Source: Ptychodera flava
Taxonomy: Eukaryota > Hemichordata > Enteropneusta > Ptychoderidae
Length of the DNA stretch: 64,000 bases
Direction of reading: 5' to 3'
NCBI RefSeq assembly: GCF_041260155.1
Contig: NC_091930.1
Location: forward strand, 41,372,096 to 41,436,095
Below are positions 288 through 59,699 of the stretch, one piece after another. Within the stretch, counting starts at the first letter, position 1; the number at the start of each line of letters is the position of its first letter. The position numbers and the translations under genes were made by a program. Below the pieces are notes generated by a model, which did not search any database, had not been told where the DNA came from, and saw only the letters and a program-made list of their open reading frames with translations.

Positions 288-1623
288 CTTGACCTGCCCA
301 TCCCCTCCGACAAGAAATTTGTGACTTGAGATCTTTCCTAACACAGTTTGCTGGTCACAGTCATGTAATAGTTGTAAGCATTCACATACGCCCAAAGCGA
401 GATCCACTCTCGTTGTCCACTCACAGCTTCCAGAATGCGTGCTTATTACATTCCTCAACGAACCCCTTTCCTCGTATTCCATCACGAGCCAGTGTGTATC
501 TGCCAGTTTCAAAGATATAGGTGGTTCTCAAAAGGTGACCCTAAATCTACATCTCACTCTGAGTCTCTCAGTAATCAGATTTGATATGTACTTCTATGCA
601 TTGAGTGTTTCTTACATAAAATTATTTCCGATGTTGAGACCTTTGCAAAAGGGTCAAAGAAAACATCAAATGCATTTTGAACGCACCAGCCTTTCGATGG
701 CTTCGTCGGTTGAAAATAGTATTTAAATCGATAGGCATTCGATCTGCATATTGAATACATACAGTCCCTAATGCGTTGATAAATTGCACATAGTGGCCTA
801 CCTGTCTCCACATCGTCCACTACACCTCTAACCTTAACATAGTGCCTGCTGTCACAAGAAGTCATTCGGTGAAAGCATCTGTATAGCATATTACGACTGC
901 AGTTCTGATTCCTTAAAGAAACCAAATGGCTACTTAAAAGCCTTGCTTTATAAACCCCAAACATACCTGTATGCCGAGCAACAATGATAGATACAGTAAT
1001 ACCTATGACACCGATAATTCCTCTACCACCACCACCATCAACATCAACAACAACAACGTCTTCATCTGTAAGAGTTATATCTTTTACTTCACGAATATAA
1101 AAAAGAAACATCAAATTAACACTTACTATATGTTATCTTTGTCATTACTAAAAACTTTTGTGATGTCATACCTCAGATTATTATTTATAATATATCGGAT
1201 TATCAAGCATTGTGGCCCAAGATGATTTCTACATCTACAGATGCATGTGCATCGATAAAATAATAAAATCATAGCAATGATATACCCCCTCCTGACCCAT
1301 AATGGACGTAAGCAAACTTTGCACTACGTAATGTACTCTCATCCGCCTCGTACATTATGTTGTACAAAGTTTGCTTTCGTCCATTATGGGCAGGAAGGAG
1401 GTACATTATTGCTTTAATGTATGTATGGGTAAGGAGATATGTTTAGAACAATTTATTTATTTCAAACCGATGTCTTGGAATATACTCTTTTACAGCAACA
1501 GTTTCTCCAGCGAACTTGCTCGTCTTACAGAACTAGTATCTGTCCCATCCATTGAAGTCAATTCAGAGATGTCATCTCTTGATAAGTTGAAGTTTCCCAG
1601 TTCTTGGCAAACTAGTGCTTCTG
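288..1623 (-). CDS. Gene 1 kinase-like domain, N-lobe to catalytic-loop region (partial)
   Basis: Exons about 1534-1623, 802-966 and 288-499. They encode a lead-in (LSRDDISELTSMDGTDT), a degenerate glycine loop (MFGVYKARL), a beta-3 strand with R where the ATP-binding K should be (LVSLRN), helix C and beta-4 (HYVKVRGVV), the hinge (HWLVMEYEERGSL) and helix E (LALGVCECLQLLHD). At the catalytic loop the sequence reads TVLGKISSHKFLV, so HRD is replaced by LGK and the metal-binding N by K. This is a pseudokinase by sequence. The activation segment and the rest of the C-lobe lie outside the window. Positions 971-1110 stay open upstream of 966 but are low-complexity GTT/GGT repeats and were not counted. 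Confidence 0.65.
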
Positions 1624-1638
1624 CTGTTTAAATAAATA

Positions 1639-1700
<62 letters not shown>

Positions 1701-4700
1701 CATGTAAGTCCAGCTATATGATGGAATTCCATGTATCATAATTATAACCATTCATGACATTGAACAAGAAAATGGACCTCTAAGAGGTAAACAATATTTT
1801 TCAGTCAAAACACATTGATTGGCAGTCATATATTTCTATCATACCTTACATATTATTGTAATTTAGCCGTAGCGACTTACGGTTGCATGTACCACAATTT
1901 GTCATGATTCTTTCCATTTGGCACATTTTGGACTCTTTCAAGGAATTTCTATATTCAGAACACTGAGCTTCCATTGCTTTGACCTTCTGCTTTTCTTCCT
2001 TTAGTTTCGTCTCCAGTTCAAGACACTCTTTCTCATACAGGGCACTTTTTTCTTCCATGCGGTCTCCTGTACGGTATAAAGAGACAACTCTCAGAAGGAA
2101 TGCAAACAATATCTATGTGAGCTAAAATAGTACATACAAAATCCACCCAATTATATTGTTAGACTCCTTTCCAAAAGCTCTATCTCTGACCGAGAATCAC
2201 CAGTTTATCTTTAAAACGAAGTCTCTATTAAATTTCCTTAGCAGGTACTGATTTTGAATTTTCAACAATCTTCTTTATGCATAAACATTATGAGCTTGCA
2301 GTAGGGTGTTTTTCTCACCAATATTTTACCAGGATAAATGAAACGGAATGTACATATTTTCAGTAAATTATAATACATGTGCACTATGTTTGAACTGTTG
2401 AAAAAAGTACATCGATCATAGACAAATATTATCAAGCGTTTTGACTGGTTTTTAATAAGATTTGAATTTGACGCTATTTTCATAGATGTTTTAAAACATC
2501 CTGCAAGAGGGATATCCTGAAAATACTGTCCCTATTTTTCAATGGTTGGATTTTGCATGCATTTATTAAAATATACCATTAATTACCGTAGTTTTTCAGT
2601 TCAAGTACAAGTTTTTCTAAGTTTGTTGTTTTCTTGAACTGTGTTCGTATGCTATTCATGTCACATTCGAGAACTTCGATACGCTTGAGACACTCCCTGA
2701 GAAGTTGCTCCAATCTTTCCATATCGTATTCAACTTTTCTGGTATCTTGCGGTCGACAGTCTTCATTTTCTACAGACCTGTACTTTGTTTGTAAAACTGT
2801 ATGACAATAAAAGTAAGAAAATTATTGAAAAAATTGGTTGTAAAATGTAATTATTATTGAATAAATGGAATTATAAGACTTTTTTGAAACAAATTAATAA
2901 CAATAATAGCAATATCTGTATGATGTCCTTAGATAAATTGTCAGTGAAAATATTTTTCGTTTCAAATTGTTCGCCTAAAACAAATTATAGGCCTTCCAAC
3001 CAATCTCCTTATGTGAATAGTCTAGGCGGTATTACGTTTTTGCATTTCCGCAACTTCATTCTTCATCTTGTGTATTTCCATTTCCTATTCGTTATCAACT
3101 CCTGTTGTGAAGCATTTTCAAGACGTAATATCATGACTTGGTCTTCAAGTTGTTTCTTATCTTTCTGCAGTTCACCCCTCTCTTCTTCCAATATTTTTTG
3201 CTTCACTGATGGTTGTGTCGACTTTGCTCACCACTTAGCCCCCGATTCGTAACTGAACCAGAATATAAACGACATCAAGGAGAACGGTTGAATGTGAAGA
3301 TTTAAATAATCAAGAGCGTCGAATATTATAATATGCACAAAATATTGATAATTGTAGCACATCACTCTCTTTAATAGGACAGTTTGTATATTTGAAAGTT
3401 ATCAAAGACAGCCAACACTGTAGGTAATAAATTCCCATGACGCAAATGCAGTAATTCCAAAATTGATGGAAGAAAAACATTACAAAGGATCCATTTGTTT
3501 ACCGAAAGTAGAAATATATCCTAATATTATGCCCTTATTTCCTTAACTGAAACTGAACACATTTTATGAACGTTAACTTAACATGACTTATCATTTATCC
3601 AGCACTCCTCATTCTATAGTTTCATTTTATTTTATTTTTTACTGAATATATTAAACCTTCACCATACACGTTATGGCTACAATCCTATTTGAATATTCAT
3701 CTATCACAAACCTGACTCTTCCCTTTGTTCGGTGACAGTTTTAAATTCAGCGATAGATTCCTCTTGAAAAACCTATTACCAAAAAACAATGCATAATTGT
3801 TTATGGTCATCCGGCCATACAGAATGTTCAGATTCGTTGTAATTTTAAACAGTCGAAATATGAGTCATACAGAGACAAATAGATCTAGCTGCAGATTATA
3901 CAGGGGAAGACCTGAGTCTTCCCTTAAAAACAAAAACTATGAGTCTTTACTGAAAAGTAATCAAAACAATAAGGAGTTACAACGTCAGTAACTTTATCAG
4001 ACAGACAACATACAGCGCCACCTGCAGGTAGAGGTCTAGAGGTCATCCCTCACGCTCAGACTGATCTTAATTTGCCCTCTGCTACTGTCCCTCATCTGAG
4101 AGTTCAAACTGTAGCTATATTTTATATTATTCATCATTTTGATGCTGTGCACTTGGAACATTCTTACATTGTGCGTTTAGGTATTATGCGTGCTATAACC
4201 CCTTGAGAAAATTCATATTTTAAGAACACGTACGAACCTTCTTTTCCTACTAAGTGCGATAAGGTGGATGTGACATGTTTTGTTATTGGATTAAACTTGA
4301 ATTAACGTCAAATGATGGAATTTGTTGCTTTACTGTTGCCTTACAACGTTTGATCACAGTCTTAACAATGATCTCTCTAACAAAAATGTTTGACCAACGG
4401 ATTTGTACTTGTCGTTTGTCATGATGACCGTTCAATATATAGGGTTTCAAGGCATGTGCTAGGGCTTCATTGCATCGCGTGCACTGTTCGGGTGTTCGCC
4501 CAATTTGTGCATGACCTTGATAGCGCATGGTTCCAAACATACTTTTATTGATGTTAAGCGTTTCAGGTCGGCTATTAACTTGCGCCGCCCTGCTGACAGT
4601 ATACTGTGTTTAGACATTTATTCCAAGCATTATTTTGTATTTAATTATTCAACTCACTTAGCAATAAAAACCCAGCGACAAAAAGTAAGCTTAAGCATGA

Positions 4701-6458
4701 AATCTCACCTCACTGCACACAAAGAAATTGTACAACTCCACGTCTCCCGGCGGCTCCTCATCTTTCACCTTTGTCCTCACAACCTGTCTACAGCTAGATG
4801 TATAAATGAAAATTCCGTTGGCTCAATATAGCGCTTTGGCGGAAAATTCTGAAGATGTCTAATTGTTCACGTATCATTGTTGTTTTGAATTATGTGTGCA
4901 TTTCTTCATTAAAAACATTATGGTAGCACAAAACAATTAAAGGTTATAAATGTTACACCAAAAAATAAATAATATACATATACCTGCCAAAGTAGCTAAT
5001 ATATGAATTAATCCAGCAATCAATCTATCAATGGATCGATTAACAGATATATCATAGGTCGATCGATGAACACACATACAAATACATATGAAAATAAATT
5101 AAATACATACATGCCCGCCTACCTGCCTGCCTAGCTACCTAGCTACCTGCCTGCCTACCTTTCAACCTACCTTCATACACATACATACGTAAGTACGTAC
5201 GTACGTACGTACGTACGTACGTACGTACGTACGTACGTACGTACGTACGTACATACATACATACATACATACATACATACATACATACATACATACATAC
5301 ATACATACATACATACATACATACATACATACATACATACATACATACATACATACATACATACATACATACATACATACATACATACATACATACATAC
5401 ATAGCATTCCCTTCTATTCCAATAATTTTGTTTTTACCTTCACTTTCTTCATACTGAATTACCGCAATCTTCTTTTCTTGGTCCATATTTTTACTTATCG
5501 TATCCCCTCCGCCAATTTTAGGACGACTGTAAAATACGTCTATGTCATCCAAGGTTGTGCTCTTGTGTTTAATATTTTTAACTAGTAGGAAAGATCTTTT
5601 AAACACCTTCATGACTACCACTCTTTCTCGTGTTCGCAACATTTCCTTCAGGGTTTGAAAATCTATAATATCGGAAAAAATATATCGAATGTTAGGCTTG
5701 TAAAATGATATGAAGTACACCAAATGTAGAATTCTGATGAAATAGGTACAGAAAGAAGTAGTGTACTTGCATTCTTAACGAATTAATTAACAACCAACGA
5801 TAAAATCAAAGTCAGACATAAAGATTTCACCGATGAGTGATCAACACTCAGATACACAACGAAAGCTTGAGGTAAGCAGAAGATCTTAAAACTTACTAAC
5901 CAACAATCTTATGTGAGTAAGTAGCGATCACCGACGTCTTATTTATTCTCTCCAATGCTGGTTCCTCTTTTCCTTTAACACAATGTCGAAGCATTTTTAA
6001 AATCTGTTCATCGCTCAAGTCTTCTGTTAACCACATAAACAATAATGAATTCTCATCTCTACGGGCATGGGCACACAGTGTTGGCACAAACTTGTTAACG
6101 AAAACGTCATCTCCGACGAAGCGGTGCTCCAAGTCTTCAAGCAGACGATCAACTTCCAGTAATGAAAGGGAAAAAAGAAATATTACTCGATGCATTATGT
6201 TGCATATCTACAAACTTGCACTTGAGATGAATCCTTAAACAAATTGACAAACAAACGCATCCATATGTTGAGCATGTCACTTACCGAATTTAGTCTGACA
6301 TTGCAAAATAACACTTTTATCTTCCCTGTAAATGTATTCTATTCCTTTGATGTGTCCGGAATTTATGCCGGAGCCCAATGTGTCCATCACCTGTTTGTAG
6401 CTGTCTGCATTGCGAAAGCGAAGTTGTATGCTATTTCTGGCGCTTGGGACATCCGAGT
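288..6458 (-). CDS. Gene 1: RRM / coiled-coil / pseudokinase protein (3' end off the window)
   Basis: Multi-exon minus-strand gene read from splice junctions and shared domains. Proposed exons, 5' to 3' in the gene: 6285-6458, 5901-6152, 5438-5662, about 4380-4464, 3712-3762, 3036-3226, 2587-2796, 1881-2066, about 1534-1623, 802-966, 288-499; it continues beyond position 1. Most junctions have GT/AG ends and phase 1 agrees from exon to exon. Domain order: N-terminal alpha/beta segment, PARP14-type RRM, about 200 residues of coiled coil, kinase-like domain lacking catalytic residues. It is a paralog of the genes at 31.1-35.5 and 52.4-59.7 kb. The start exon is not certain; candidates lie at 7.4-9.5 kb. 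One single-base deficit interrupts the exon at 3036-3226. Function unknown; the kinase fold is probably non-catalytic (inference). Confidence 0.7.
1283..1403. mobile_element. Foldback (MITE-like) hairpin inside gene 1 intron
   Basis: Two arms of about 54 bp, 1283-1336 and 1350-1403, are inverted copies separated by a 13-base loop; they share CCCATAATGGACG, AGCAAACTTTG and TAATGTAC in reverse complement with few mismatches. It lies in the intron between the exons at 1534-1623 and 802-966. Confidence 0.75.
1641..1699. repeat. (TCAA)n microsatellite
   Basis: About 14-15 copies of a TCAA tetranucleotide lie in an intron of gene 1, just upstream (in gene orientation) of the acceptor of the exon ending at 1623. 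Confidence 0.95.
1881..3762 (-). CDS. Gene 1 coiled-coil exons
   Basis: Four exons: 3712-3762, 3036-3226, 2587-2796 and 1881-2066. Each is rich in E, K, L and Q with heptad spacing, for example KQLEDQVMILRLE, RLEQLLRECLKRIEVLE and ECLELETKLKEEKQ. The phase-1 joins fit only if one base is missing in 3036-3226, near the AAA run at about 3,113-3,117; without it the frame ends early in an AGA-TGA. The donor at 1881 (CAACC then GTAAGT) and the acceptor at 2066 are strong. The coil presumably drives oligomerisation of the protein (inference). Confidence 0.65.
4380..4464 (-). CDS. Gene 1 RRM C-terminal exon
   Basis: After an acceptor ...AATGAAG the frame reads ALAHALKPYILNGHHDKRQV and then QIRW, the last helix and strand expected for the RRM begun at 5438-5662. 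The phase-1 join gives a continuous frame. The donor end is not clear; several GT positions lie between about 4,360 and 4,385. The equivalent exon in gene 3 is 59,027-59,115. Confidence 0.5.
5190..5403. repeat. Compound (ACGT)n-(ACAT)n microsatellite
   Basis: A run of ACGT units (about 5195-5250) changes directly into an ACAT run (about 5250-5403). It is an intronic tetranucleotide array of gene 1. All frames stay open through it, which produces spurious long reading frames rich in Tyr, Val, Cys and Met. Confidence 0.97.
5438..5662 (-). CDS. Gene 1 RRM-like exon (PARP14/PARP10 type)
   Basis: The exon runs from an acceptor TATTATAG to a GTAAAA donor (225 bp, phase 1 at both ends). It encodes strand 1 as FLLVKNI, then a helix DDIDVFYS, the glycine turn KIGGGD, and a final strand IAVIQYEES. 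This matches the RRM-like repeats of PARP10/PARP14, which have LxVxNI, xLxxYFE, GGGxI and aϕϕxFed blocks. The RRM tail (ALAHAL...QVQIRW) is on the next exon near 4380-4464. RRMs of this class bind RNA or mediate protein contacts. Directly downstream on the plus-strand map is a large ACGT/ACAT microsatellite inside the intron. Confidence 0.7.
5901..6458 (-). CDS. Gene 1 N-terminal exons: unknown domain with WxTE-like motif
   Basis: Two exons, 6285-6458 and 5901-6152. The first follows the acceptor TTATTCTAG and ends at a GTAAGT donor; the second follows a pyrimidine-rich acceptor and ends at GTTAGT. The join is phase 1 and stays open. The second exon encodes helix-rich sequence (VDRLLEDLEHRF...) followed by a hydrophobic strand LLFMWLTEDL and, about 30 residues later, SVIATYSH. 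The same strand-WTE-helix-strand layout occurs at 34,548-34,807 and 7,396-7,656. I do not recognise the domain; it is not obviously TIR, death-fold or macro. It may be a small alpha/beta module preceding the RRM. Confidence 0.6.
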
Positions 6459-7656: not shown

Positions 7657-7699
7657 TGCAAATCGCAATAATTATGTTTTCTCGACAAGTATACAATCC

Positions 7700-10332: not shown

Positions 10333-10901
10333 TGTTATGTAGGTCATTCCCCCCACACTCATCATGACCTGAGTTCAATTAGTCTAGAACATTCTCAAGG
10401 TCACTGCCCTTGATGACCTCACAACCTTGAATTCAATTAGTCATGTTTGGAATGTTCTGGAAAGTTGATTAGTTGTGTAAGGGAGATAATTTTAGAACAG
10501 TAATTAGCATGTCAATAAAAGTTCTAGATTGTTCTTATATGCCTTTATAAAAGGGACGTGCTCAGCTTCCAGTCAGACTTTTGGGATCGTGTCTCTTGTG
10601 TGTTACTAAACTCCAGCAGTAGTCATTCTCAAGACTTTTCAAGACCTTCACTGCCAACGCTGGATTTATACTGGGACTTTGTGCAGCTTCAAGCCTGCAA
10701 GCCAAAGGACTGTTCATTCATCCGACTGACTGTTACAACTCTGAGACTGGAGCTTTGCCGTCCAGCTGAGATAAGTAGTCTGTACACTTTTAAAGCTTGT
10801 ACTCTGTCCCTAACTAGCAATTAGTTTTGTTTTCGTAATAAATTTTGTTTAAACGGAAACTGCTGAGTTCACCCTTTTGTTCGTTTTCTCTGCACGTAAC
10901 A
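10333..10901 (+). repeat. 5' LTR
   Basis: 569 bp, bounded by TGTTATG and CGTAACA (5-bp inverted ends). Contains a TATA box (10,546-10,553) and an AATAAA (10,837-10,842). It aligns end to end with 16,030-16,598 with six single-base indels and no substitution seen. Confidence 0.95.
10546..10553 (+). promoter_or_regulatory. LTR TATA box
   Basis: TATAAAAG, 35 bp before the CAGCTTCC-type start region in the 5' LTR; the same motif is present in the 3' LTR. It is the likely U3 promoter for the genomic RNA. Confidence 0.6.
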
Positions 10902-10905
10902 AAAT

Positions 10906-10923
10906 TGGGGGCTCGTCCGGGAT
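10906..10923 (+). promoter_or_regulatory. Primer binding site, tRNA-Pro type
   Basis: TGGGGGCTCGTCCGGGAT begins 5 bases after the LTR end. This is the 18-nt sequence known from gammaretroviral primer binding sites that pair with the 3' end of tRNA-Pro. Confidence 0.85.
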
Positions 10924-11006
10924 ACGAATATTTTGAGCCGTTTGACAACATTTTGCCTGCCTTTTTCAAAAACTACTGTATACTGTGAACTCAGCGAAAT
11001 TCAATC

Positions 11007-15895: not shown

Positions 15896-16017
15896 AGTTT
15901 ATTGTTGTTCACTTTCAAGAAATTTTACTTTAGAGTAAAACAAATTTTGAGTACTTAAATCTTTTTCAAGATTACATTTGCAAAAGAAAGATTTTCTTTG
16001 AAAAATTTTCTTTTTTT

Positions 16018-16029
16018 GAAGAGGGGGTG
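16018..16029 (+). promoter_or_regulatory. Polypurine tract
   Basis: GAAGAGGGGGTG immediately before the 3' LTR, the expected position of the plus-strand primer. Confidence 0.8.
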
Positions 16030-24244: not shown

Positions 24245-24247
24245 TTA

Positions 24248-25700: not shown

Positions 25701-25747
<47 letters not shown>

Positions 25748-27250
25748 GTATAAAAGGCATAATATTACATCCTAAGAGGTAATATATTATCTGTAAAGGG
25801 AAGTTAAATATATCCTATTATGTATTTTATTGTATTTTGTTGTATACCATTCAATGAAGTTCGATGCCGGTAATATTCGAATGGAAGTTGTACATTTAAT
25901 TTAAAGTGAAATGAGGTGTTTTGAAAAAAGACAGCTCACAGCCATTTTGAAAAAAAAACTAATATGAATTCTTGACTGTTTGACATTTGGTCTTAGTTAC
26001 ACATAATTTAATATCATGAATTTTTCTGAGGAATAAAACAAAACCCCGAAAAGAAAGGGGTTGCCCTGAAAATTTTGATCCGTAAACATATTTACGAATT
26101 ACCAAAGACACAAAATTCACATTAAGATTATCTGCTGGATCACCAAGAATCATACAAAGCTTGATGGAGTCGAACAGAGATCTAGTGATCGATCCATTGT
26201 ATGTATAATATTTCGCAATAGGGCTTTTGTATGGCTACAGTCGTAAATAACTGTCCTATTTTCTCTGGAAAGTTATGACAATTTCCACACAAGTTCCATT
26301 TCGAGGGGGGGCACCTTTGATGTGTGTAATGAATAAGAACTTTTGACGCAATTGCTTTGATGTAATGATTTTAGTTGCCATAATTTAGAAAACAATCGAC
26401 ATATGCATTATGTTTGTGAAGAACAGCATCCAATAAAGTTTTATTTAGGCTGGAGGCAGTACATAAGCTTATCATATTATCTTGAATTCAGAGACCTTGA
26501 ATTTAGAAATTTATTCCTTGTTCGTTTGCACTACAGGTTCGCCATCTTCCATACCGAAAGGTCACACAAAGCCTCTATTGTGTTACTCTGATAGAGTAAG
26601 TAATGGTGTATTGCTTTTCTAGGTCCCCGGCCCATATGCAAAATAGATACACGACTAGTAGTGAAATAATAAGTACAGGTGATGCGCAAGTAATTACATA
26701 CAAACACAATCACATTTCGCTGATACTGTAAGTGAAGATCTCAACTCCATGGCTTTGAACACATATTTGCAAAGGTCGATGAGTGTCTTATTTTCTGCAG
26801 GTGACACATATAATAGTGCTTGAAATTTGTTATTGTTTGGTTCAAAATATGTAAATCGCGGTAAAAACTTGGTTCTGAGGAGATGGGAAAGTGGTTCTCA
26901 TCTTCAATGTCACCTGTGTTACAAATCATAAATATTCTGAGGTGTGGGTCTATACTTTTCCGTCTACCTTCTTTGATCACCAGGGTAACCTTTTAACCTT
27001 GTTTGTGAAAACGTTTATCTGAACCCGGGACAGCTGGAAATGATGTCATTGTTCATTGTCACCTATTTATTCATTCTATCATCTATTCAGGATCCAATAA
27101 AATATGTGTTACATTTGTACAAAGACTATGAAGGCGTGAAATATATACTAATTCAGACTAAGGCAACTCATAAGAGTATCTAAACGACAACATTTGAATC
27201 ACCTATGCTGAAATAGTCTTCACTGTTTGCATCACTGCACACAGCAAAAT
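24248..27250. other. No gene seen; simple repeats
   Basis: Contains short TCTA/TCTG runs near 24,260-24,345 and an (AC)n-(TA)n tract at 25,674-25,740. No exon with coding character and splice signals was found on either strand. Confidence 0.5.
25674..25740. repeat. (AC)n-(TA)n dinucleotide tract
   Basis: About 10 AC units, a CCCCCC spacer and about 18 TA units. Confidence 0.9.
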
Positions 27251-31073: not shown

Positions 31074-33749
31074 CTCGCACAGTCAATCTTTCTGATGGTT
31101 CATGCCGTGTGAGACCAAGAGTGGCATCCTTGTACTGTGTCGGGCAGTCGTCCGGCAGAGTCACATCTTCACCTCTGATAATCGCTAATTTAGTGTTCAA
31201 ATTCCAGTCTGCTAAACAAAATATGGCACTTATAATGTAAAATGAAAATAAATTTTAATATATCAATTCGTCGTTACAAACATCAGAACAGTGTCGGTTT
31301 ACGTTTCATAAGATACATACAGTTAAAACAAACAAAAAACAAAGCCACACTGACCATTGACTATATCTCTGCCTTTTGCAATTGCTTCCAGGATCTTCCC
31401 ATACCTATGGATATAAAAAATACAAATCATCGTTTACTAAAAATATTTTGGTAAACTCCAGGAAGAATATTCAACAAGATTCCGTTCTAGATCATTTTAG
31501 CTTTAATGCCATCCAAACAGAATACAAGAACTTCAAGCAACTTTTAGTCTGCGATGCGTTGCATGTGGATAGCCAAAGTCGTGTTCGGCGTGTACGACGG
31601 CGTGTGACACCTCGCCAATTTTTTGTCACCTAAAACAACCTATAACTACTCTCAAGGTCATAATGCCTATATCCACGGTTCATCCAAGACAACAAGACGA
31701 ATTGATTTGAAACTAAATTTCGCAGAATTGGATGAAAAAAAATCAACGTTTGCAAAAAAACAAATGTCCTTTCAGTACAAGGTCACGAGACCAATCTCCT
31801 TTGTATTTACATTTCATTGGATTGTACGATTGGCTGGGTCTTTTAACTGAAAAAAATCCTAAAACTTGAACTTGGTTTTAAGAAAGTTGGCGAGGTAAAA
31901 TGGACACATGCTACATAAAAAGTTTATATTTGCCACTTTGCAATGGATTATGTTGATACTAAATTCAATGCCCGGCTTTCTCTAGTTATATGTTTACATG
32001 AAGATATAAACTTTGATGTCTCCACTCTGCCTATTACTTTGACTTACCCATAAGCTTCAGCTTCTAAATTGTAAAACGAGTTGTTTCCTTCTTCACTCAA
32101 AATTTCGGGTGGCTGGTATGGTTCTGGAGAAATTGGATATTCTCTCTCTGCTGTACCTGTGGTTTCAACATCGCCGGTGTTACAAATCTGAAAGAAAACA
32201 TCAAAACATGGGATAAGTAATCACTGTGTGGTGACTGTTTCACGGAAAAGGAATATGAAGTTCAAAGATTAGAATCAGGAAAGAGGAAAACTTACCTTGG
32301 CCCGAAGGTCCTCGGATACCAGAATGTTGGCGCAGCAAGTATTTCTCAAGAGCATGTCACGGCTGTGTAAAAAGTCAATTCCCCTTCCAACATCCAGTGC
32401 CAACTGATTTCTTTCTCCCCATGTCAGAGTCAACAAACTGTCTTCCAGTACATCGGACAGACACCCTCTGGCCATGCATTCCATTACCAACCAAAATATG
32501 TCTGCAAATAGTAAATATTGTGTTTACAAATGGTACGCCATCAGGTTCTGTTTGAGTGGCTGTAAAACGATACGTAAATACGAATAAAGTGACTGACAAA
32601 CTGTGCTATACTTTGCATGCAGGTGTAAGATCAACCCCGAGGTACTTGTACTATTCACTTTCTCCAACATATTGTTAATAGATTTTTGAAGTCTTTAATT
32701 AAGGTGGCTATTCTACATCTATTGTAGAGAACGATAGGATTTTGCGTGCGGTAAAAATAGCTGTACTGAATGCCTTTTCATAACATACACCGTCTCCAGG
32801 CTCCCCGCCCTTGCGGATGTGTCTACGTTTTCACTGTTGAACGGTTTCAAGGGACCCACTGGACGAGTGCCAGAATTTGCCTCACGCTATGTATGTGCAG
32901 CGCACAATACTAGAAGCGTGTCAACGACCGAGAATTGCATTCCACACTGTGCTTGCGCTATAAATCGGAAGATGAATTATTGTTATTGATTATTCACGAT
33001 CAGTAATCGGACAATTTGATGCCCCAGTTACGAATGTAAGATGTATAATAATAAGGTTGCCTCGAAAAATATTGCAAAGGCTGTAGTCGGACATTGACGC
33101 CACCTATGAAGATTACCTGTATTTAAAACTTAAAAAATTAGAACATTAATTGCACAACCTTCGTCAGAATGTGAACAGTAACCATACACCTCCACGATGG
33201 AATCACATCGCAAGACACATGAACGCTGATATCTTCTGATAAGTTGCTCCTGTCGAAGATAGTCTAACTTCATCCTGTTTGAATATAAAACAGATTAGAA
33301 CTCTGGTTATGTTGTTTCTGTTTAACACTGTATGAGCACTAGTTCTCCGTCTACCGCTTATAGCATGAAATACCTTGCTGTATGCTCGTCAACACATGAC
33401 TAAGAGCTTTGTCAACTGAAATTTTGAAAAATTAACTATTTGTTTCACCAACACCTATTTCACGACGTTTAGAGAGCTCATGGATATATCAAGATAATAG
33501 AAATTTTGTCCGAATTTCTTATAATCTTAGGCATATATTTGACCAGGAGATCAACTGGATATTTGACATAGCCAAAGAATCAATATTTGTGGTCTTACTT
33601 TGGTGGCGAAGCCAGCTTTTCAACTGATACAGGTCTGCCTGCATAACATGCCTGAAACAATTGACCAAAACGTCCAATCGATAGATTCCCATTGGCAAGC
33701 TCTGTAACTTCGTGTGGACTGATTATACCGGACTCTTCTTCATGTGTTA
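31074..33749 (-). CDS. Gene 2 pseudokinase domain
   Basis: Seven exons. Lead-in and glycine loop: ISPHEVTELANGNL, then SIGRFGQLFQACYAG. The beta-3 strand reads VSVEKL, with E in place of the ATP-binding K if aligned to VAVKKL. Helix C and beta-4: LRQEQLIRRYQRSC and SIVEVY. Hinge: FWLVMECMARGCLSDVL. Catalytic loop: MLLRNTCCANILV, where HRD becomes LRN and the K is lost, although the metal-binding N is kept. The DFG site reads ICNTGD (NTG). PPE replaces APE (YQPPEIL). Subdomain XI keeps PSERLTV. With catalytic Asp and DFG Asp both changed it should be inactive as a kinase. Confidence 0.72.
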
Positions 33750-35509
33750 CTGCGATAATGAAATGCAAAATACATGTGAGTGGAAAATTGTTAATGAAAC
33801 GGTTAAAGACTTTTATCATAAAATAACCAAGACTAGCATAGCGGCAGAGAAACAGGAAAATAAACGCAGTCTTCTGTCAATGCAAATATCACATTTGGAT
33901 CAACAAGTTGCGCCTAGAATGTTGAGTTCGTGAAATGAAAAGATGATGATTATTTTTCACCTTCTTTAGAAGCAGTGTCGAGTTCCTCATGTTCATTATT
34001 TTCTTTTATTGATAACGCTCTTCTTTCGCTCTTTTGTAGTTGACACTTCAGATATTCAGCTTCATCTGTCAACTCTCCCATTTTCAATTGGAACGAGACA
34101 TCTTTTTCAATCAGAGCCTTTGCTACGGATCTTGAGAGTTTGAGTTCCTCTGTCTGTTCAATGTATTGACTTTCTATGAGCCTGTTTTTAAGTTTTTCTT
34201 CTTCTAGCTGTTCCTGAAGAACTTTATTTTCTACCTGAAGGTTGCCGATGATCTCTTTTTGATGCTTTACTTCTTGCATGTAATGGAACCTTGTGTGTTT
34301 GGTCTGTAATTCAGTCTTGATATCCTCCCCATTTTCAGAAATCAAACCTCTCAAGTCTGAAAATTTCGGATGATTCAACAGACTTAATCGAAAATCGAAG
34401 TATTAATTGAACTTTAGATTATCAGTATAACATTCTAAACTATTTTGTGATTCAACATTGTTCGATGGCCATTGTGAACATTCGTTTTCGTTACATTTTT
34501 AAAATCTTTGTAGGACGCCTGGAGCTAAGCATACGTTTATAATTTACCTGTAAACGTCGTTGAATCGTGAACTCCTACTAGCACCTTCTCAACCCCGAGG
34601 AGTTCGAGGATCTTTGGTCTTTTTTCAATGATATCATTGGCAACCTTTTCGTTTTCCGTCCATATTATTAAAAGTCATTATCGTCACCCTTGCCACGCTC
34701 ACACCTCAACCCTTTGATATACGCGTTCAATATATCTTCCACATTCTGCAATATTTCCTTTACGTTCAGCTGGAACGCAACAGACACTCCTGCTCCGCCA
34801 GAATGATCTGCAATGATAAAAAGAAGTAATGATTCGCATTAATATTCCGTCGATAATTACCATTGCCCAGCTAAAATTCCAGATGACAATTTTGTTAAGA
34901 GTTAGATAAGTATACTGATCTTACCGTTTCTTGTTGACTTTCCCTTTTTCAGTAAGGTTTTGTTCCATGTCGACTTACAGGTACCCGTATCTGAAGAGTA
35001 TATTAGATACCATTGGCATATACGTGTTTAAATTTAAGATTTTCAGGATCAGATAGGACATTTAGCAATTCACCATATTTTGTTGTGTTAAAGTATTGTG
35101 TGTTAAGTATGATGCAGCAGAGCGAAGTTGGTCGACAATAAATGTATGCGAAAGGTTTGCCTTTCATTAGTATTAAGAAATCGAAGGCAAGCATACAATT
35201 TCCACGTTCGCGCTGGATTAATATTTTTAGCTTGGAAACCAGTTTTCGTCATTAAAACAATTAAGGCTACTCTTCTTTCAGGCCAGAAAGCCGTAATACC
35301 CTTGTTATTTTGAATAGCTGACGAGGGTAACTATCGAGGAATAGTAACGACCAGCATTCAGCATCGGCATAAGGAACTTAACGCCGTCTTAGAGTTATAT
35401 CCCGTAATTTGTACGAGGACCAACTGTCGCATCACTTGGTTCATTACTTTACTTGGTTCGGATATTTTCAGTAAAATACCACTACACATACCTGTCAAGA
35501 TGTCTTCCT
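31074..35509 (-). CDS. Gene 2: WTE domain / coiled-coil / pseudokinase protein
   Basis: Exons in gene order: 35492-35509 (microexon, tentative), 34925-34990, 34548-34807, 33961-34356, 33599-33749, 33183-33274, 32296-32501, 32048-32187, 31355-31404, 31074-31208. All have GT/AG ends and the phases agree throughout. Order of parts: short basic N-terminus, alpha/beta segment with IIWTE, a 130-residue coiled coil, and a complete kinase fold. Unlike genes 1 and 3 no RRM is seen between WTE segment and coil. One base is missing in the T/A run at about 34,668-34,673. The last coding exon and poly(A) site were not found. Paralog of genes 1 and 3 and probably a non-catalytic kinase-like protein. Confidence 0.75.
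33961..34356 (-). CDS. Gene 2 coiled-coil exon
   Basis: A single 396-bp exon from TTTTCAG to a GTGAAA donor, coding about 131 residues of charged heptads, for example KEIIGNLQVENKVLQEQLEE and LTDEAEYLKCQLQKSERR. Phase 1 at both ends. Probably an oligomerisation stalk between sensor-like N-terminus and kinase fold (inference). Confidence 0.75.
34548..34990 (-). CDS. Gene 2 N-terminal exons with WTE-like segment
   Basis: Exon 34925-34990 (TGTCKSTWNKTLLKKGKS) joins in phase 1 to 34548-34807, which begins DHSGGAGVSVAFQLNVKEIL. After one missing base near 34,670 it reads LIIWTENEKVANDIIEKRP and KVLVGVHDSTTF before a GTAAAT donor. The strand-WTE-helix-strand pattern is shared with 5901-6152 and 7396-7656. 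Domain not recognised. Confidence 0.6.
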
Positions 35510-45350: not shown

Positions 45351-45624
45351 ACATTAAAGGGCTGGTGAAAAGTAAAAATGAATTTTTTATTGCTTGTTTA
45401 TTTTGATGAATAAAATGGTCAGAAAAAGATCTGCATTGGAATTTTCAAAACTGCGTTCCCAGTTCCGAATAAAGGCCCTAGCGACGCCCTTGGCAACAAA
45501 GATACAAATCTTCGGTACACTTCGGCAAATGTCGGGTATGACGTAATTTACAGCACATTGACCGCCGGCGATATATTCACGTCAGTGCTTTTGTGTGCAT
45601 TCTCGAAATCCATCGTAAAAAGCT

Positions 45625-45870
45625 GTGACAGCGCCTAAGCGTTGTGTCGCTGCGCATTGTTCTCATTCAGTATCAAAATTGTTTCAATGGCCAAAGGATG
45701 AAGATCTGGCCAGAAAATGGACCAAATTTGTGAAAGCAAAGCGGGTTAATTTTACTCCTGTAGCCAAGCGCTGGCTCTGCATGGCAGGGCTTTGTGTTAC
45801 CGGCGTTATACGGGGAGGCCGTAATAACAGGTATTTTATACAAAGGCACAGACTTATTCTACCTGCAACT
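45625..45870 (+). pseudogene. THAP domain remnant (transposase N-terminus)
   Basis: The frame from 45,625 begins MTAPKRCVAAHC and continues SKLFQWPKDEDLARKWTKFV with KAKRVNF, the conserved C-x4-C, LF-x-WP and W-T-x-FV positions of a THAP zinc finger. The later Cys is present (RWLC), but the C-x2-H-F pair that completes the zinc site is not, and the frame ends soon after. It lies just inside the left end of a TTAA element, so it is read as a broken transposase rather than a host gene. Confidence 0.6.
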
Positions 45871-52426: not shown

Positions 52427-55400
52427 TCATTTTGGCTGCATCGATTGACAGTCCCCTGCACTGAGATTGTCGACCAAGTTCTTCAGCTCAGCCTCTGCAT
52501 CTGATGAAAGACACTCCCATTGTTTAGATTCGTAATGAATTTCAGACAAAATTTGCAATTTCTAAGCAAATATTTTTGCAGAATTTATGGAAGGGGTCTG
52601 TAACGGGAGAGTGAATAATTCAAATCACATGTGATATCTGCATTTCTCGACTTACCTTTACACTCATTCTTTGTGAAGGGTCGTTGTGTTTGAGCCCAGA
52701 CGTTACTCTTTTAAACGCTTCGGGACAATCAGCCGGCAATGGTTTAGCTGAAAAAACGAATGTGGATTAGCGAAAAGGAGGCAAATTCCAAGATAATGCA
52801 AAATTTTTAATCTCGGAAATTTGACAGTATTGGTGTTTTTAAGTGTGCTTAATTTTAAATTTGTCTAACATCGCATAATCAGTATTCGTGGTACGCACAG
52901 TGTGCTTCCTGATTGCTGGACTCTAGTTAAAGTCACTGTTGACGATTAAAACTACACGTTCCCATTTCCATACAGTGCTCATAATCAAAACTTTATAAAG
53001 CTTCATAATATCCGAAATTACGCTTAATGATTGCCCGCTTGTGTTTCATATGTGTCACATTATGTCTGTTCTGTTAATGTCAGAATAAAACTAAGACGAT
53101 CGTTTTTATCAAATCAGTAGCAGCTTTTGTGACCAGTATGTGTACGGGGTTCTAACAAGAAACATCTCTGATTTCATATCTACTAAAATTCAACAATACT
53201 TCCAACTCTGAAAATACACAACAAACGGAAAGACCTGGATATTAAATCACGTAAAGCAATGCGTTTGGAAGGAAAGAAGTCCAGCATATAACGGAGATTA
53301 CAATAATTGTGCACACAAGTAAAATAATAATCATGACATTATACCTTCACTAGGGGGTTTGCCAGTCGCAATTTCCCAAACGATAATACCGAGCCTGTTG
53401 AGAAAAGACAACAATTTTAAGGATATAAGCCATCAAATTACATCATTAGTAGACATATTCTTGGCTCTATCACAGTGATCTTAAACATAATTGTAAATTA
53501 TCTATATCTTTACTGTTCAAAGGAAAATACAACTTTTACTTCGTTCTCGACTTTTATGTCCTTACCTCTCTTGAATTTACGGAAAGATATATTATACACA
53601 TTAATGGAAATAAGATGTTGTAATCCTTAGATGGGGCTTAGTATTTCCTGCGATAAGAAGATGAAGAAACAATAGTGAATGAATTACCCGTAGAGCTCTG
53701 TCTCTTGGCGATACTTGTCTCTTTCAGAGGTCAACTGTTCTGGCGGAATATATTCTCTATTCTTTTTGTGAAGGTATCTTTTCGCCATGTCAGGATTGTC
53801 GGTGAAAGTAAAGTCATAGAGCTGAAAGAAAAAATATCACCAAATTAGAATGATGCTCTTTTTACGTTTGACATTTGTAACCTACTGAGTATCCTTATGG
53901 TGTTTACAGTTATTATCACATACCTTGACTTCCCTGTTATCTCCAATCAGAAGTTTGTGAGATCCAATTTTCCCCAATACCATCGGACGATTGTTGTTGT
54001 GAACTAAACGCAAGCATTTGCACACACACCAAGCGATTTCGGCCTTGTCCCTCGAGCTAAGACTTGCAAAGTTTTCCCTTAGCATGTCTGCCAGTGAGCC
54101 GTTCACCATATATTCCATTGCAAGCCACCGAGGCTCTGAAATATTCCAATCGTTGAGAAGCACGATATATGAGGTATATTTGAAGAGGCGAAACACATTC
54201 AATTCATTAGAACGTGTTTTACTTGAGCTAATACTTTACCTTAAATTGGGTAAAAATTCCGTTAAATGTAGTTATAACATGGAGCCAATGAGACATTTTT
54301 TCTGTCACATGCAGCTAAGATATTTAACCGTGAGGTTCGGATTTTAATCCAGTGAAATTTTTTGCCCTAGTTTTACAGTAATTGTGTGAAGGATTGAATG
54401 TTAATTATAAAACATTTGAGTTCAAGTGGTATCCATTTGTCTTGAATCGCGCACAGTTTAATCGCGTCTGCCTTTTGAAATACCTTTCTCTCTCCCGTAC
54501 ACGACCCCTATTCCCTGTACGCAGTACTGTGCTTGTAACGAATTCATTCTTTCATAAGCGTGAAAAAGTGCTTCAGGGGTGCATTCAGTGCCCGATACAC
54601 TGGAAAAAACAGCGTTAACACAAATGATAAGTATCGTAATGATATCCATTGTGATTCAGTTAAGAAAGACATCAAATAACACAACATGAGTGACTACGCC
54701 ATAGCAATATATTGGCTCTGATGAAGACGTGAGCGAAATTGCAAGGGTCATGTTCACGAGTAAGCATATGTACCCATACGCCTTGTGAGATTGAAAAGTT
54801 TACGTTGAACATATTTTGAGTTGAAGGTTGACAAAAATGTCACGGAAGAGGGGAAGAAGGGGGAGGAAGGAGGCTGGACTCAAGTAAAAAGCATCACCAT
54901 CATCATCATCCGAATAAAGTATTGGCAAAGACAATAACTGTTTTGGCAGATTTAGTTTAGAACTTTATGATGACTCATGAGCACTGCAGTAAAATATTTT
55001 TTGCAAAAATAGAAGTATTTCACACAATTTTTTCCCCTTGCATGTTGACGAGCTAAATTCACATAACTCAATTTTAAAAAATACATGAAGGTGGTGGTGT
55101 GATGGTAATGAAAATATGGAGGAGGAAGAGAAGGAGGACAATGATGATGATATTAATTATAATGTCGATCATCACCATCATTATCTGATAAACTACCTTG
55201 ATTTAAATGTGAATGTAATTTGGAAATCGTTTGCTTCTGAAAAACAAATCAATACAAAGAAGTCAAAAAAAACATTCTATCAAACCCGTATGACATGCGG
55301 TGATCTTTCATTGCAATGACTTGATTCCCATAGTAAGCCTTTTTAACAGTTCCACCGTTTTTCCCGCTTATGGTAGCCATATCCCTGATAGCCTCCAGTG

Positions 55401-55436
55401 GTATCAATGCATCGTTAATCGCCTGGCAAATTGGTC
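52427..55436 (-). CDS. Gene 3 pseudokinase domain, complete
   Basis: Eight exons. N-lobe: glycine-rich SGKNGGTVKKAYYGNQ and beta-3 IAMKDHR, with the ATP-binding K kept. Helix C/beta-4: ALFHAYERM and CVQGIGVVYG. Hinge: PRWLAMEYMVNGSLADML. Catalytic loop: MVLGKIGSHKLLIGD, so HRD is LGK and the metal-binding N is K. DFG site: LYDFTFTD (DFT). Then YIPPEQL for APE, GIIVWEIATGKPP for subdomain IX, and NDPSQRMSVK for XI, ending in an acidic tail with LKNLVDNLSAGD. It may still bind nucleotide through the K but lacks the catalytic base, so enzymatic activity is unlikely. Confidence 0.78.
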
Positions 55437-57289
55437 CTGCAATAATAAGAAAACAATTAGAAAATTTTAAAGCAAACAGTATGCAGAGGCCTTCTATGCG
55501 TCAATCAAGGTAGTAACTTACCGCTCTTAATAGGGTTTCCACCGTCCACCGTTTAACTTTTCAATGTGACGTATCTTCAACTCCTTGTTTAGTGCAACTT
55601 CTTCTGCGTACTTGGCTTCAAGTTCTTTGATTCGACGATCTGCTTCATCTTTTTCACTTTTCAAACGAATATTTTCGTCAGTCATTTTCTCATATTTGGA
55701 TCCAAAGTCGAGAAACATCTTCCTGCTTTTTATACTTTCCGATTCCATTAGTTCTCCTTAAGGCGAACCACATCATAATAGTGTATTTTGAATTAATAGG
55801 TACTATTAACAGATCTAGCCGTAGCTTTACAAAAAACAATCAGGAAACAATCAAATGATTATGAATGCACAACTATTTCAGAGCTACGTAAACTAGGAAT
55901 TTCTTTACAGCATAATATAGGCAGTAAAAGACATGGAACGATCAGGATGCACATGTACAAAGTAAAAATAATAAATAATCATTTTATAAACTTGTCCTTC
56001 ATTAGATTCAGTGGATCGAATTGTTCTATATTTTCCGTCAGATTTAGGGTCAAGTTTTCCGTTACATACCACATTGAAGTTATTAAAGTGTTTGCGTCGA
56101 ACCATTGGCAATACAGGAACTGCAAGACAAACTTAGTACTGTCGAAATTGAAGATTTGCCAATAGAGTCGAGTATAAATATCGTCTAGCGGCAATATCAA
56201 CCGATCACAAAGAAACTAAATCTGCCAAAGTTCAAACGTTGCCTTGAAGGAGGTCAAGCGTAGGCAAAACAACAACACCTGATTTGCGGCACCAACTACA
56301 CTACAGATATTGTGGTATGAACGGGATATGTGTGGATGTGTGGTGTAGTTTTCACTAAACTCAAGACCTTCTTCCGGACAATGTTCCAAATTTCGCAGGG
56401 TTGATTTTTTTGTATTGTCTGAAATTACTACTACGACTGACAGTGTTTTGAAACTCATCAATTAGACATGTGTCTAGTTCCTGTATGCCAAAGATTCAAC
56501 GCAAACCTCTGTAATGCTTTAATATTATCGCAATAATTCATTTTCATTTCTGCTTTATGTTTGTAATATAACGTAAGTATTCAGGAGTGTAACTAAATTC
56601 AATAAGTTTAAGGGAATTAAATGCATAAAAAAATTTGTTCAAAGTTACTGATAATATTTTAATTTTAATCATAGGTATTTTAATGTAGGTAAACTGTCCT
56701 TTGTCATTATTCCTCCGACATTAATAAAGATGTGTTTCATTTTATGTTTTGGTTAAGTTTTCTTGTATATTTCCTATATGTCCATTTCTCCAATGTCCTT
56801 TTTACATTAATTAACATTAACGAGCGTATCGAAGATCGCAAAAAATTCCGAATCATCAAAACAGATGACAGAGACGCGAGTTGTCGTCACGTGGAACGGC
56901 CAGGGATAAATCAAGTAATTTTCGTGTAGAGATGACAAATTTGGCTTGTGCCTGACATTGTCATAATAATAGTAAAAGAATAATTAAAGAACTATATAAT
57001 TATCATAATTTTCATAAACTTTTCGGCATAGAGGTATTTTGGGTCGGAACGAAGAAAAAGAATGTCAGTTTTGATGCCCCATGTTTCCACGGTAACCATT
57101 TTGACGTTTAAAATATCCTTTTTTGGCAAATTTCGTTGAAAGTGGATTAGAAGGCAACAAAACACTCAAAAATGTCCCTTGATGAGTTATAATAAACAAA
57201 AGTGATCTTTATGCTCATACTGCCTGTTTCCATGGCAACCTTGTGATGGCCAGAATTTTTTTTCCAAAACCCAACCAAAAAGACCTTGT

Positions 57290-57332
<43 letters not shown>

Positions 57333-59699
57333 TAATAATAACATTAATGGTTCTTATATAGCGCATATGTCCACAAGTGCATGTGCCCAAGGCGCTTTAC
57401 AATTATCATTACCCCTGGTCACTGGACCTTATTTGACACCGCTCTACCCCCTTGGGGACACACAAAGCCCACACGTGCAGCCAATCAGCGCAGCAGAGCT
57501 AAACGCACACATTACAACCACTTTCCCACCGGTACCTATCTCTCCTGGTGGGGAGGAGCAATGAGGGTTGCCTTGCTCAAGGACAAAACACCATAGCGAC
57601 GCCGGATCTCGAATTCATCATCCTGTGATTGTACGTCTACTACTCTAGCTACTGGCCCATGATGATTCCTCTAACATATGTCATGGTTTACTTACCGTAG
57701 ATTCGCAGCTGACGATTGTATTCTTTTAAATCAGCCACTTCAGTTCTAAGATTACGGTTTTCTTTCGAATTTCTCCAAGGTTCGACGTTGTCCCCGTGTC
57801 CGTGTTGCGTGCATTCCGCTAGTTGATCGCGCAGTTTCCTGTTTTCTTCACAGCTAAGCGGTGATTAGGATTTGTGCATACCTCAATCACATCTACTTGC
57901 CAGCCCTTCTCGTTGACGCCTTGCTCGAGTTGACTGCAATCTGTTAGTGTGAAAAGACACGCAGTTTTGTGAATAACTGAACAAATATCCAGAAAAAAAC
58001 CACCCCCATAAATTTACATTGCTAAGACGGTGTCAGAAACATCAATGCATATTTATAGGCTATAATGAATGCGATCATACTGTAAATAGTTACCGAGATA
58101 TGGCACATCAGCAAGACTATGTTGCGGATGATAGTTAATGCTCTTCACTCGTGAAAGTTGTGTTTCAAGTTCAATAACCTGCGACTGTAATTCATCGCAA
58201 CGCAATTCCAACTCAATATGTTGTTTTTCCAGCTGATTGTTTCTTTTCTGAACTTCACCCATTTCTTCCTCAGTAATGTACAGCATTTTCGAGGTTTGAG
58301 TACATTTTGCCTCTGATTCATGGTGACTGGATCCTTAGGCTCTGTTATTATAGAAATAAGGATATTAGTTGAAGAGTGGATTCTCCAATAACATTAAGAA
58401 TGGCATGAAACCCCAAATGTATTGTACAGGATATTCCTATGTTCAAACATTTTCAACTTTTACTTTTCCCCTTTCTCTGTGACAGATATCATCAACATTG
58501 ACTTTGTACGTTTTTATATTGATGAACGTATGTCTTGCGGTCATTTGGAAACTGAACCAGCAAAAATGATGTTATTCATTTTAAAAGACATAAATGTACG
58601 CTTCATGACATCAAACTTTCAATTTCAGTTCTTTGAAAATTGTAACCTTAGTATAGAATAATGCATGGAATGAATTAATCCTTCTTGGGTTTAAAATTTT
58701 AGACTATATCCCATTAAATATATTTCATAATGTTCCTAAAAGGCAATCATTTAATGAAAAAGAATTGTATTTTAATACTCAAATTAAACTTACCTGAACA
58801 TTCCATAATTTCTGGAGGTGCGGCGCAATCTAGCGATAATTCCTTTAAAAACAGAGTGATAAGGATTGGTTTGTCAATTTTTTGTCAGTATATCTTTATG
58901 GTCATGGAAGTATATGAAAGTGCACAAGCATAATTTTCATTCAGAAGAGAGCCGTATACAATATGCATAGAAACATCATTTACTTTTGTAGTGGTAGACC
59001 TGTAAGTAAGAATGTATTTATTTTACCTTGTGTTTAAAAAAGTATCTGTATACTTCCACTTGTAGTGTCTTTTCGCGTATGGTGTGTTTGTCACGTCCAA
59101 CAACATCACTTGCGACTGAATGTAGACAAAAACGAAGTAAAATCATTTAATCGGTTTGGGGTTATGTTTATATAACCTTAAATATATTACTTTAAATTTC
59201 AGAAAATTTGCACATTTATAGATACTAGAATGTAAGGTACTCACATTTTGCTGCATATTCAAGTCCTCAATCTAAAGCGCCAACGTTCAATTATTGATAA
59301 TAGTTGTACATACTTAAAGCTAAAAGCTATAAATAGTGCTGTTACCCAGAAAGCTCATATATATCTATTTGGCCTTATGTTTGTATGACTTATTCACACA
59401 CTGCCGTAATGAAAGTTATTCATAAAGCAAATTTGAAGCAGTGATTGAACGGGACAAAGTTGAAACACAAACAGGGTACCTTGAACATCTTCATACTGAA
59501 TGCAGCCAATCTCTTCATCTCGTCAAAGTGTATATTTCGTATGTCACTTCCACCAACCCTAGGACTTTCAAAATAACATTCCAAGAATGTTTTGTTGATA
59601 CCGTCAGGACATCTTTAACCAACACAAATGCTCCTACAAGGACTTTAACAACCACTAACGAGTAGCATCTCTCTAGGTCATTCTTCATCTTCTTGAAAT
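52427..59699 (-). CDS. Gene 3: RRM / coiled-coil / pseudokinase protein
   Basis: Best-resolved family member. Exons in gene order: 59480-59699, 59027-59115, 58794-58829, 58094-58268, 57696-57940, 55550-55756, 55286-55436, 54484-54599, 53924-54135, 53688-53821, 53345-53394, 52656-52747, 52427-52561 (stop TGA). All junctions are GT/AG with consistent phases once three single-base deficits are allowed (two in the first exon, one in 57696-57940). Order: PARP14-type RRM, linker, coiled coil, full kinase fold. Exon lengths match paralogs: 212 bp for the C-lobe exon (as in gene 1), 50 bp for subdomain IX (as in gene 2). Exons upstream of 59,699 are not identified, so the true start and any WTE segment are missing. 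Confidence 0.78.
55550..58829 (-). CDS. Gene 3 linker and coiled-coil exons
   Basis: Exons 58794-58829 (12 codons), 58094-58268, 57696-57940 and 55550-55756. Heptad-rich stretches include RNNQLEKQHIELELRCDELQ, NRNLRTEVADLKEYNRQLR and RRIKELEAKYAEEVALNKEL. A one-base deficit near 57,853 breaks the third exon. The donor at 55,550 (GTGGAC) is weak but keeps the phase. The role is probably multimerisation (inference). Confidence 0.68.
57288..57341. repeat. (TAA)n microsatellite
   Basis: About 15 TAA units directly before a dispersed repeat, inside an intron of gene 3. Confidence 0.93.
57342..57660. mobile_element. Dispersed SINE-like repeat with TAA tail
   Basis: Motifs CTTATATAGCGCATATGTCC, CAAGGCGCTTTACAATTATC and TTGCTCAAGGACA, followed by a GGATCTCGAATTC box, are the layout of a widespread animal repeat (TATATAGCGC ... 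AAGCGCTTTACA) that commonly abuts (TAA)n. It is inserted in a gene 3 intron. The class is not certain. Confidence 0.5.
59027..59699 (-). CDS. Gene 3 RRM-like domain
   Basis: Exon 59480-59699 starts DFKKMKNDLERC, parallel to DFQTLKEMLRTR of gene 1. Strand 1 reads FVLVKDV, then in the next frame TFLECYFESPRVGGSDI, and in the third frame IGCIQYEDVQ. The exon 59027-59115 completes it with ASDVVGRDKHTIREKTLQVE. The blocks (LVxDV, YFES, GGSD, IQYED, H-x-I-x-x-K-x-L-x-V) match PARP10/PARP14 RRM repeats closely. Each frame change equals one missing base. Confidence 0.7.

Follow-up and report, generated by a model that had tools for sequence, protein, structure and literature searches.

Three neighbouring genes of the hemichordate Ptychodera flava predicted to join RRM or alpha/beta segments, a coiled coil and an MLKL-like pseudokinase

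Results

Gene content of the window

The DNA analysed here (the window) is a stretch of 64,000 nucleotides of Ptychodera flava NC_091930.1, and all gene models were read from its genomic letters alone. The window contains multi-exon genes and retroelements, and a tRNA scan and an Rfam scan of it gave no match. Three neighbouring multi-exon loci were predicted on the minus strand, gene A (6458-288), gene B (~35166-31074) and gene C (59699-~52427), which bears out the claim of an earlier note on this DNA that three such genes are present; the outer coordinates of that note, 288 and 59699, are predicted splice sites. The models are partial and comprise 585 residues (A), 486 residues (B) and 634 residues (C), with gene A being truncated by the start of the window ahead of the DFG position. 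The predicted order of parts is alpha/beta segments, RRM, coil and kinase in gene A, alpha/beta segments, coil and kinase in gene B, and RRM, coil and kinase in gene C. The predicted parts of gene A are as follows (E, expect value):

6285..6458 (-): exon of alpha/beta segment 1; open frame, donor 9.0, weak acceptor; no Pfam match above cut-off
5901..6152 (-): exon of alpha/beta segment 2 with the "WTE-like" strand MWLTE; open frame, splice scores 1.0/4.4
5438..5662 (-): exon with most of the PARP14-type RRM; RRM_PARP14_3 15.8-21.2 bits (cut-off 24), tblastn with the gene C RRM E 5e-5
4709..4783 (-): tentative exon with the probable last RRM strand; donor 10.6; out of phase with the preceding exon
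3049..3222 (-): first coiled-coil exon, with one frame break and a very weak acceptor; 53% over 36 residues to coil exon 1 of gene C
2587..2796 (-): coiled-coil exon 2; splice scores 2.6/6.3; heptad test of the whole stalk
1881..2066 (-): coiled-coil exon 3; splice scores 5.9/5.7; heptad test
1468..1623 (-): exon of the kinase N-lobe, with VAVK retaining the beta3 Lys; one frame break; ends in phase 2
802..911 (-): alpha-C exon; Glu replaced; donor 10.4
288..499 (-): exon of the kinase C-lobe, with LGK in place of HRD; PK_Tyr_Ser-Thr E 1e-7; 39% to gene C, E 5e-15

Inside gene A, the RRM exon is followed immediately by a long GTAT/GTAC microsatellite (5165-5410). The predicted parts of gene B are:

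35011..35166 (-): tentative exon 1, alpha/beta segment; 18% identical to gene A across 181 N-terminal columns; weak splice scores
34548..34807 (-): alpha/beta exon with the IIWTE strand; one frame break; splice scores 4.8/8.7
33961..34357 (-): coiled coil of 132 residues in a single exon; weak acceptor; AlphaFold2 helix and heptads
33599..33749 (-): kinase N-lobe with the loop SIGRFG; reads VSVEK, without the beta3 Lys
33159..33274 (-): alpha-C exon, placed by alignment and intron phases
32296..32501 (-): C-lobe exon; HRD replaced by LRN; donor 11.8
32048..32187 (-): exon of the activation segment, with NTG in place of DFG and an intact PPE
31355..31404 (-): alpha-F exon; phase 2 junction common to B and C
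31074..31208 (-): last kinase exon found; PSERLTV

The predicted parts of gene C are:

59480..59699 (-): RRM exon, first part; two frame breaks
59027..59115 (-): RRM exon, last part; RRM_PARP14_3 40.8 bits across both exons
58794..58842 (-): linker exon; donor 12.8
58094..58333 (-): coiled-coil exon 1; weak acceptor
57696..57940 (-): coiled-coil exon 2; one frame break
55522..55753 (-): third coiled-coil exon, with a weak acceptor and one frame break
55286..55436 (-): kinase N-lobe; beta3 Lys kept (IAMK); acceptor 7.0
54484..54599 (-): alpha-C exon, placed by alignment and intron phases
53924..54135 (-): C-lobe exon with LGK in place of HRD; weak acceptor
53688..53821 (-): activation-segment exon; DFT and PPE
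53345..53394 (-): alpha-F exon
52656..52747 (-): last kinase exon; PSQRMSV; donor 11.8
52427..52500 (-): probable final coding exon (tentative), closed by a stop; a one-base shift is needed to bring it into phase; weak acceptor

The junction of the gene C RRM exons is in phase 1 provided that the first of them contains a second one-base break; joining this break lifted the RRM_PARP14_3 match from 37.4 bits to 40.8 bits. Near 53206-53160 of gene C, where the model lacks about 14 residues that are present in gene B, an additional alpha-G exon may be present, as seen by eye.

Relationship of the three genes

Judged by sequence, A, B and C are paralogs, because their kinase halves match each other and their introns coincide with equal phase. 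In phmmer comparisons of the kinase parts, C and A scored 85 bits, C and B 60.3 bits, and A and B 31 bits. Genes A and C both score higher with their two paralogs than with two MLKL stretches (at best 24.3 bits for A and 48.3 bits for C), and the score of B against C is higher than that of B against IRAK4 (46.2 bits), while the score of B against the partial A lies below both IRAK4 and the better of the two MLKL stretches (38.0 bits). Three introns are equal in place and phase in all three genes within the window, and two more are shared by B and C. The intron between the N-lobe and alpha-C is in phase 2, and the one before the hinge W in phase 1, in A, B and C; the intron before the DFG position is in phase 0 in B and C, with a gene A donor at the same place. 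The alpha-F intron of B and C is in phase 2, and their donor before alpha-G is in phase 1, with the next exon of C beginning about 14 residues later.

The similarity of A and C extends ahead of the kinase. Their first coil exons are 53% identical over 36 residues (E 1.7e-4), and their RRMs are homologous by tblastn (E 5e-5). In the C-lobe exon (71 codons), the identity between A and C at codon positions 1, 2 and 3 was 62, 65 and 37%, respectively, a pattern that fits past purifying selection. A remnant of a fourth copy was detected, with tblastn E values of 0.004 (whole window) and 8e-4 (own stretch); a search of 16600-31000 at E 0.1 turned up no exons next to it:

26825..26926 (-): remnant activation segment of the fourth copy, B-type; 45% by tblastn across 38 columns

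The pseudokinase part

The Pfam profile PK_Tyr_Ser-Thr matched C with E 6e-19, B with E 6.1e-22 and the partial A with E 3.4e-8. The positions of HRD, DFG, the alpha-C Glu and the beta3 Lys were assigned on the A/B/C alignment from the general kinase motifs, and are presumed to be correct. The earlier note had described a kinase without catalytic residues. This description holds for the HRD Asp and the alpha-C Glu, both of which are lost in all three genes in the alignment (HRD reads LGK in A, LRN in B and LGK in C). It does not hold for the beta3 Lys, which A (VAVK) and C (IAMK) retain and B does not, or for the DFG Asp, which is kept in C (DFT), is replaced in B (NTG), and lies beyond the window in A. 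By these alignments, A, B and C all fall under the definition of a pseudokinase, a kinase fold with one or more catalytic residues lost. With this architecture and the catalytic Asp lost, the three proteins would likely serve as signal-gated immune scaffolds and not as enzymes.

When a profile of the kinase halves of A, B and C was run against the PDB, the first 11 matches were all MLKL (95.5-89.6 bits), followed by 7t6f, a tyrosine-protein kinase that we take to be JAK1 (76.0 bits). With C left out, the profile of A and B again returned MLKL in the first 11 places (64.8-58.4 bits), followed by a plant RIPK (54.1 bits). Gene C alone gave MLKL in the first eight places (best 51.3 bits) and then TNNI3K (45.9 bits). 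On these scores, MLKL is the nearest relative of the family profile with a solved structure, a ranking that does not in itself prove orthology. The analogy to MLKL drawn in the earlier note is thus backed by sequence at the level of the family profiles, and is closer than that note could tell, while its second analogy, to PKR (EIF2AK2), is not backed in this way. PKR combines an RNA-binding part with a kinase fold. Unlike PKR, the models of A, B and C gave no match to its double-stranded RNA-binding domain (Pfam, up to E 1), and all three have lost the HRD Asp. No PKR chain was among the best 60 PDB matches listed for A, B and C singly or for the A+B+C and A+B profiles.

In terms of likeness to MLKL, the predicted proteins share a helical part ahead of the pseudokinase and the loss of the HRD Asp, and the catalytic loop of gene A, VLGKISSHKFLV, resembles HGKIRSSNFLV of MLKL 6bwk; the loop of another MLKL, 6vc0, differs in reading HRN. 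In contrast to MLKL, the four-helix N-terminal domain was not found by Pfam (up to E 1), the predicted coil is longer, an RRM stands in front, three copies lie in tandem, and gene B as a single sequence is nearer to IRAK4. IRAK4 and plant RIPK-like kinases were among the next-best kinase matches, with IRAK4 being the best for B alone; these kinases are active and have neither an RRM nor a long coil.

The RRM and the alpha/beta segments

The earlier note had proposed an RRM and/or a WTE-like alpha/beta segment, followed by a long coil and a kinase fold. The coil and the kinase fold were recovered in A, B and C, and the profile search suggested in that note gave a Pkinase-type match in all three. 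In terms of the RRM, the Pfam match is above the cut-off only in C and below it in A, and gene B carries the WTE alpha/beta segment alone. The order of RRM or alpha/beta segments, coil and pseudokinase stands as a prediction.

The gene C RRM matched RRM_PARP14_3 with 40.8 bits (E 2.3e-10, cut-off 24), and RRM_PARP14_1 was a second match below its cut-off (E 0.001). Two shuffles of the same segment gave no Pfam match. In gene A, a second weak match was NID (E 0.07, 14.1 bits), which lies below the cut-off of 25, and NID gave no match for B or C (Pfam, up to E 1). Segment 1 of gene A has a beta-alpha-beta-beta pattern and may be a divergent RRM; RRM_DEAH11 matched from the end of segment 1 through segment 2 with E 0.025-0.043, below the cut-off. 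Between A and B, the "WTE" segments are 18% identical over 181 columns (BLASTP E 0.004 as a single comparison), and their pattern of strands and helices would fit further RRM-like units, comparable to the three RRMs of PARP14. AlphaFold2 prediction of the first two exons of gene A, with the in-frame intron read through, was of low confidence (mean predicted local distance difference test, pLDDT, 42.6) and was not used, so that three tandem PARP14-like RRMs in gene A would rest on this pattern and on sub-threshold matches. A PDB search with the gene C RRM, the pair of RRMs and the pair of A and B N-terminal parts returned no usable match.

In the RRM of gene C, beta1 is VLVKDV and beta3 is RIGCIQY; in that of gene A, they are LLVKNI and KIAVIQY. 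At the positions presumed from the RNP motif to be those of the canonical aromatics, both genes have aliphatic residues or Cys. The closest known module is that of PARP14, PARP10 and DTX3L, which is like the present family in the RRM_PARP14_3 of gene C and in the possible presence of two or more RRM-like units in gene A. PARP14 is described as having three N-terminal RRMs and DTX3L as having one (PMC13224862). Unlike the PARP14 family, the models of A, B and C gave no match to ART, macro, KH, WWE or RING domains (Pfam, up to E 1). NMI and IFP35 resemble the present family in combining a zipper or coil with NID domains, and differ in that the NID match of gene A is below cut-off; they have no kinase domain.

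The coiled-coil stalk

The heptad score of the stalk was higher than that of shuffled sequences in 300 of 300 cases for A, in 300 of 300 for B and in 299 of 300 for C, the stalks of A and C being read with their frame joins included. The structure prediction that the earlier note had suggested was informative for the gene B coil exon, which AlphaFold2 from the single sequence predicted as one helix (residues 2-131, mean pLDDT 94.7), and not for the gene A N-terminus; in this mode, AlphaFold2 tends toward long helices for heptad sequences. A stalk corresponding to the MLKL four-helix bundle was also considered, and this was set back by the prediction of the gene B stalk as one 130-residue helix.

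Other features of the window

A Ty3/gypsy element lies at 10333-16598 (+), with a gag that contains a SCAN-type domain, an integrase upstream of the reverse transcriptase and RNase H, and an interrupted pol frame. This integrase-first order is presumably Gmr1-like, a type known from deuterostomes, which agrees with a deuterostome source of the window. Open reading frames at 61525-62466 (+) are QRICH1-type (below cut-off) and DUF3504, and probably belong to a tyrosine-recombinase (Crypton-type) element. A THAP-like domain at 45619-45870 (+) was just under the Pfam cut-off (E 0.0013), and a 0.7 kb repeat is present in two direct copies, 37114-37776 and 39342-40022, which are 78% alike. The long terminal repeat (LTR) pair of the Ty3/gypsy element suggests that one-base gap errors occur about 6 times per 1138 bases in the assembly, which would break many uncorrected gene models.

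Discussion

We tentatively read A, B and C as tandem coil-pseudokinase paralogs, with a PARP14-type RRM that is clear in one gene and likely in a second, which may serve as an innate-immune scaffold; this reading as a whole is possible rather than probable. The RRM arm would catch a ligand, likely RNA or an RNA-bound partner, and the coil would multimerise the protein. The MLKL-like pseudokinase would not transfer phosphate and would instead be a switch, or a site where a partner kinase or an effector docks. Gene B, for which no RRM could be demonstrated, would join these assemblies as a partner or as a decoy. RNA is suggested as the ligand by the PARP14-type RRM of gene C. The immune setting is suggested by the combination of a PARP14-type RRM with an MLKL-type pseudokinase, by the tandem duplication, and by the presence of MLKL in invertebrate deuterostomes (PMC11476962, PMC11507063 and PMC11932488).

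Several results weigh against this reading. No relatives of the predicted proteins were matched in a protein-database search, in a database whose coverage of animals is uncertain. The RRM_PARP14_3 match of gene A reaches 21.2 bits at most, below the cut-off of 24, and gene B has no Pfam RRM match. The lack of aromatics at the presumed RNP positions weakens the RNA role, and RNA binding may be lost. Taken singly, gene A matched a protist MAPKK-like kinase (27.6 bits) ahead of MLKL (24.7 bits) in the PDB, and gene B ranked IRAK4 first there, with no MLKL among the best 60 matches listed; phmmer likewise scored B higher against IRAK4 (46.2 bits) than against MLKL (38.0 and 33.0 bits). The MLKL-type four-helix domain gave no Pfam match up to E 1 (E 10 for the gene B stalk), although the presence of its model in the library is unconfirmed. 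One-base frame joins are needed at about eight places (two in A, one in B and five in C), several splice acceptors are weak, and the junction between the gene A RRM exon and the next exon is out of phase. The hemichordate Saccoglossus is reported to lack a transcriptomic response to poly(I:C) (PMC11251625).

Another explanation, which is somewhat unlikely, is that the proteins are protein-binding adaptors, whose RRMs have lost RNA binding and join proteins in the manner of NID, so that the coil and pseudokinase would form a platform that is not triggered by RNA. The aliphatic or Cys residues at the presumed RNP aromatic positions of A and C and the weak NID match of gene A point in this direction. 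NID1 and NID2 carry the contact between NMI and IFP35, i.e., protein binding (PMC8698480). However, the sole match above cut-off is to a PARP14 RRM and not to NID, and the RRM and KH domains of PARP14 are described as largely uncharacterised in PMC13224862, so that the missing aromatics are not decisive.

It is improbable that the cluster is decaying and consists of pseudogene copies without a product. Such decay would fit the frame breaks, the fourth remnant, the retroelements nearby and a TGA that may lie in frame where the first coil exon of gene A begins (unless the very weak acceptor is used). However, the LTR pair has six one-base gaps and no substitutions in 572 columns. The two copies of an LTR should be identical at insertion, so that gaps without substitutions suggest assembly errors of the one-base kind, and gaps of this type appear to be typical of the assembly. 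All six of the broken exons tested were opened by one added base (three of them also by one removed base), compared to 46 of 300 random 220-base pieces opened by one added base, a comparison that is biased because the exons were chosen as looking broken. The codon-position pattern of A against C also argues against decay. The frame breaks in A, B and C look like assembly errors.

A direct killer of the necroptosis type, i.e., an MLKL relative whose stalk attacks membranes once it is released by the pseudokinase, is quite improbable. The first rank of MLKL for the pseudokinase profiles and the order of a helical part followed by a pseudokinase are what such a protein would have. Human cells are reported to be killed by the N-terminal parts of MLKL of Rotifera, Echinodermata, Urochordata and Cephalochordata (PMC11476962). 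Against this, the gene B stalk is predicted as one helix and not as a four-helix bundle, and the Pfam search gave no match of that kind, with the above reservation on the library model. Sea cucumber and amphioxus MLKL are also reported to be without an annotated MLKL_N domain (PMC11507063). It is very improbable that the RRM and kinase units are separate genes that adjoin and are not spliced together, for although the weakest splice sites lie in the RRM-to-coil part, above all in gene A, the RRM, coil and kinase have the same order and strand in A and C, and coil exon 1 and the RRM are homologous between them.

Returning to the reading as an innate-immune scaffold, a bolder form of it, which we consider unlikely, is that these genes encode a one-piece death or alarm switch, in which a PARP14-type RRM sensor, a coil assembler and an MLKL-class pseudokinase would together cover vertebrate ZBP1, RIPK3 and MLKL, with the RRM-less gene B as a tuning partner. 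The modules are known. The order of RRM, coil and pseudokinase was not found described among the titles and abstract openings listed in a literature search that was thin on subscription papers, which is consistent with the earlier note, whose author knew of no named family with this order. UHMK1/KIS carries a kinase and an RRM-like domain in one protein, but with an active kinase first, the RRM last and no coil.

MLKL is the last step of necroptosis. Its phosphorylation by RIPK3 is reported as not conserved in a sea cucumber (PMC11932488). The gene family described here bears on what triggers MLKL in animals without RIPK3 signalling of the mammalian type. With an MLKL-like pseudokinase joined to a PARP14-type RRM, it would bring together two modules of immunity that were not seen linked among the papers listed in the literature search, and suggests that a sensor can be fused directly onto a switch. 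PARP14-type RRMs would in this way gain another output module beside the ADP-ribosyl transferase and the E3 ligase.

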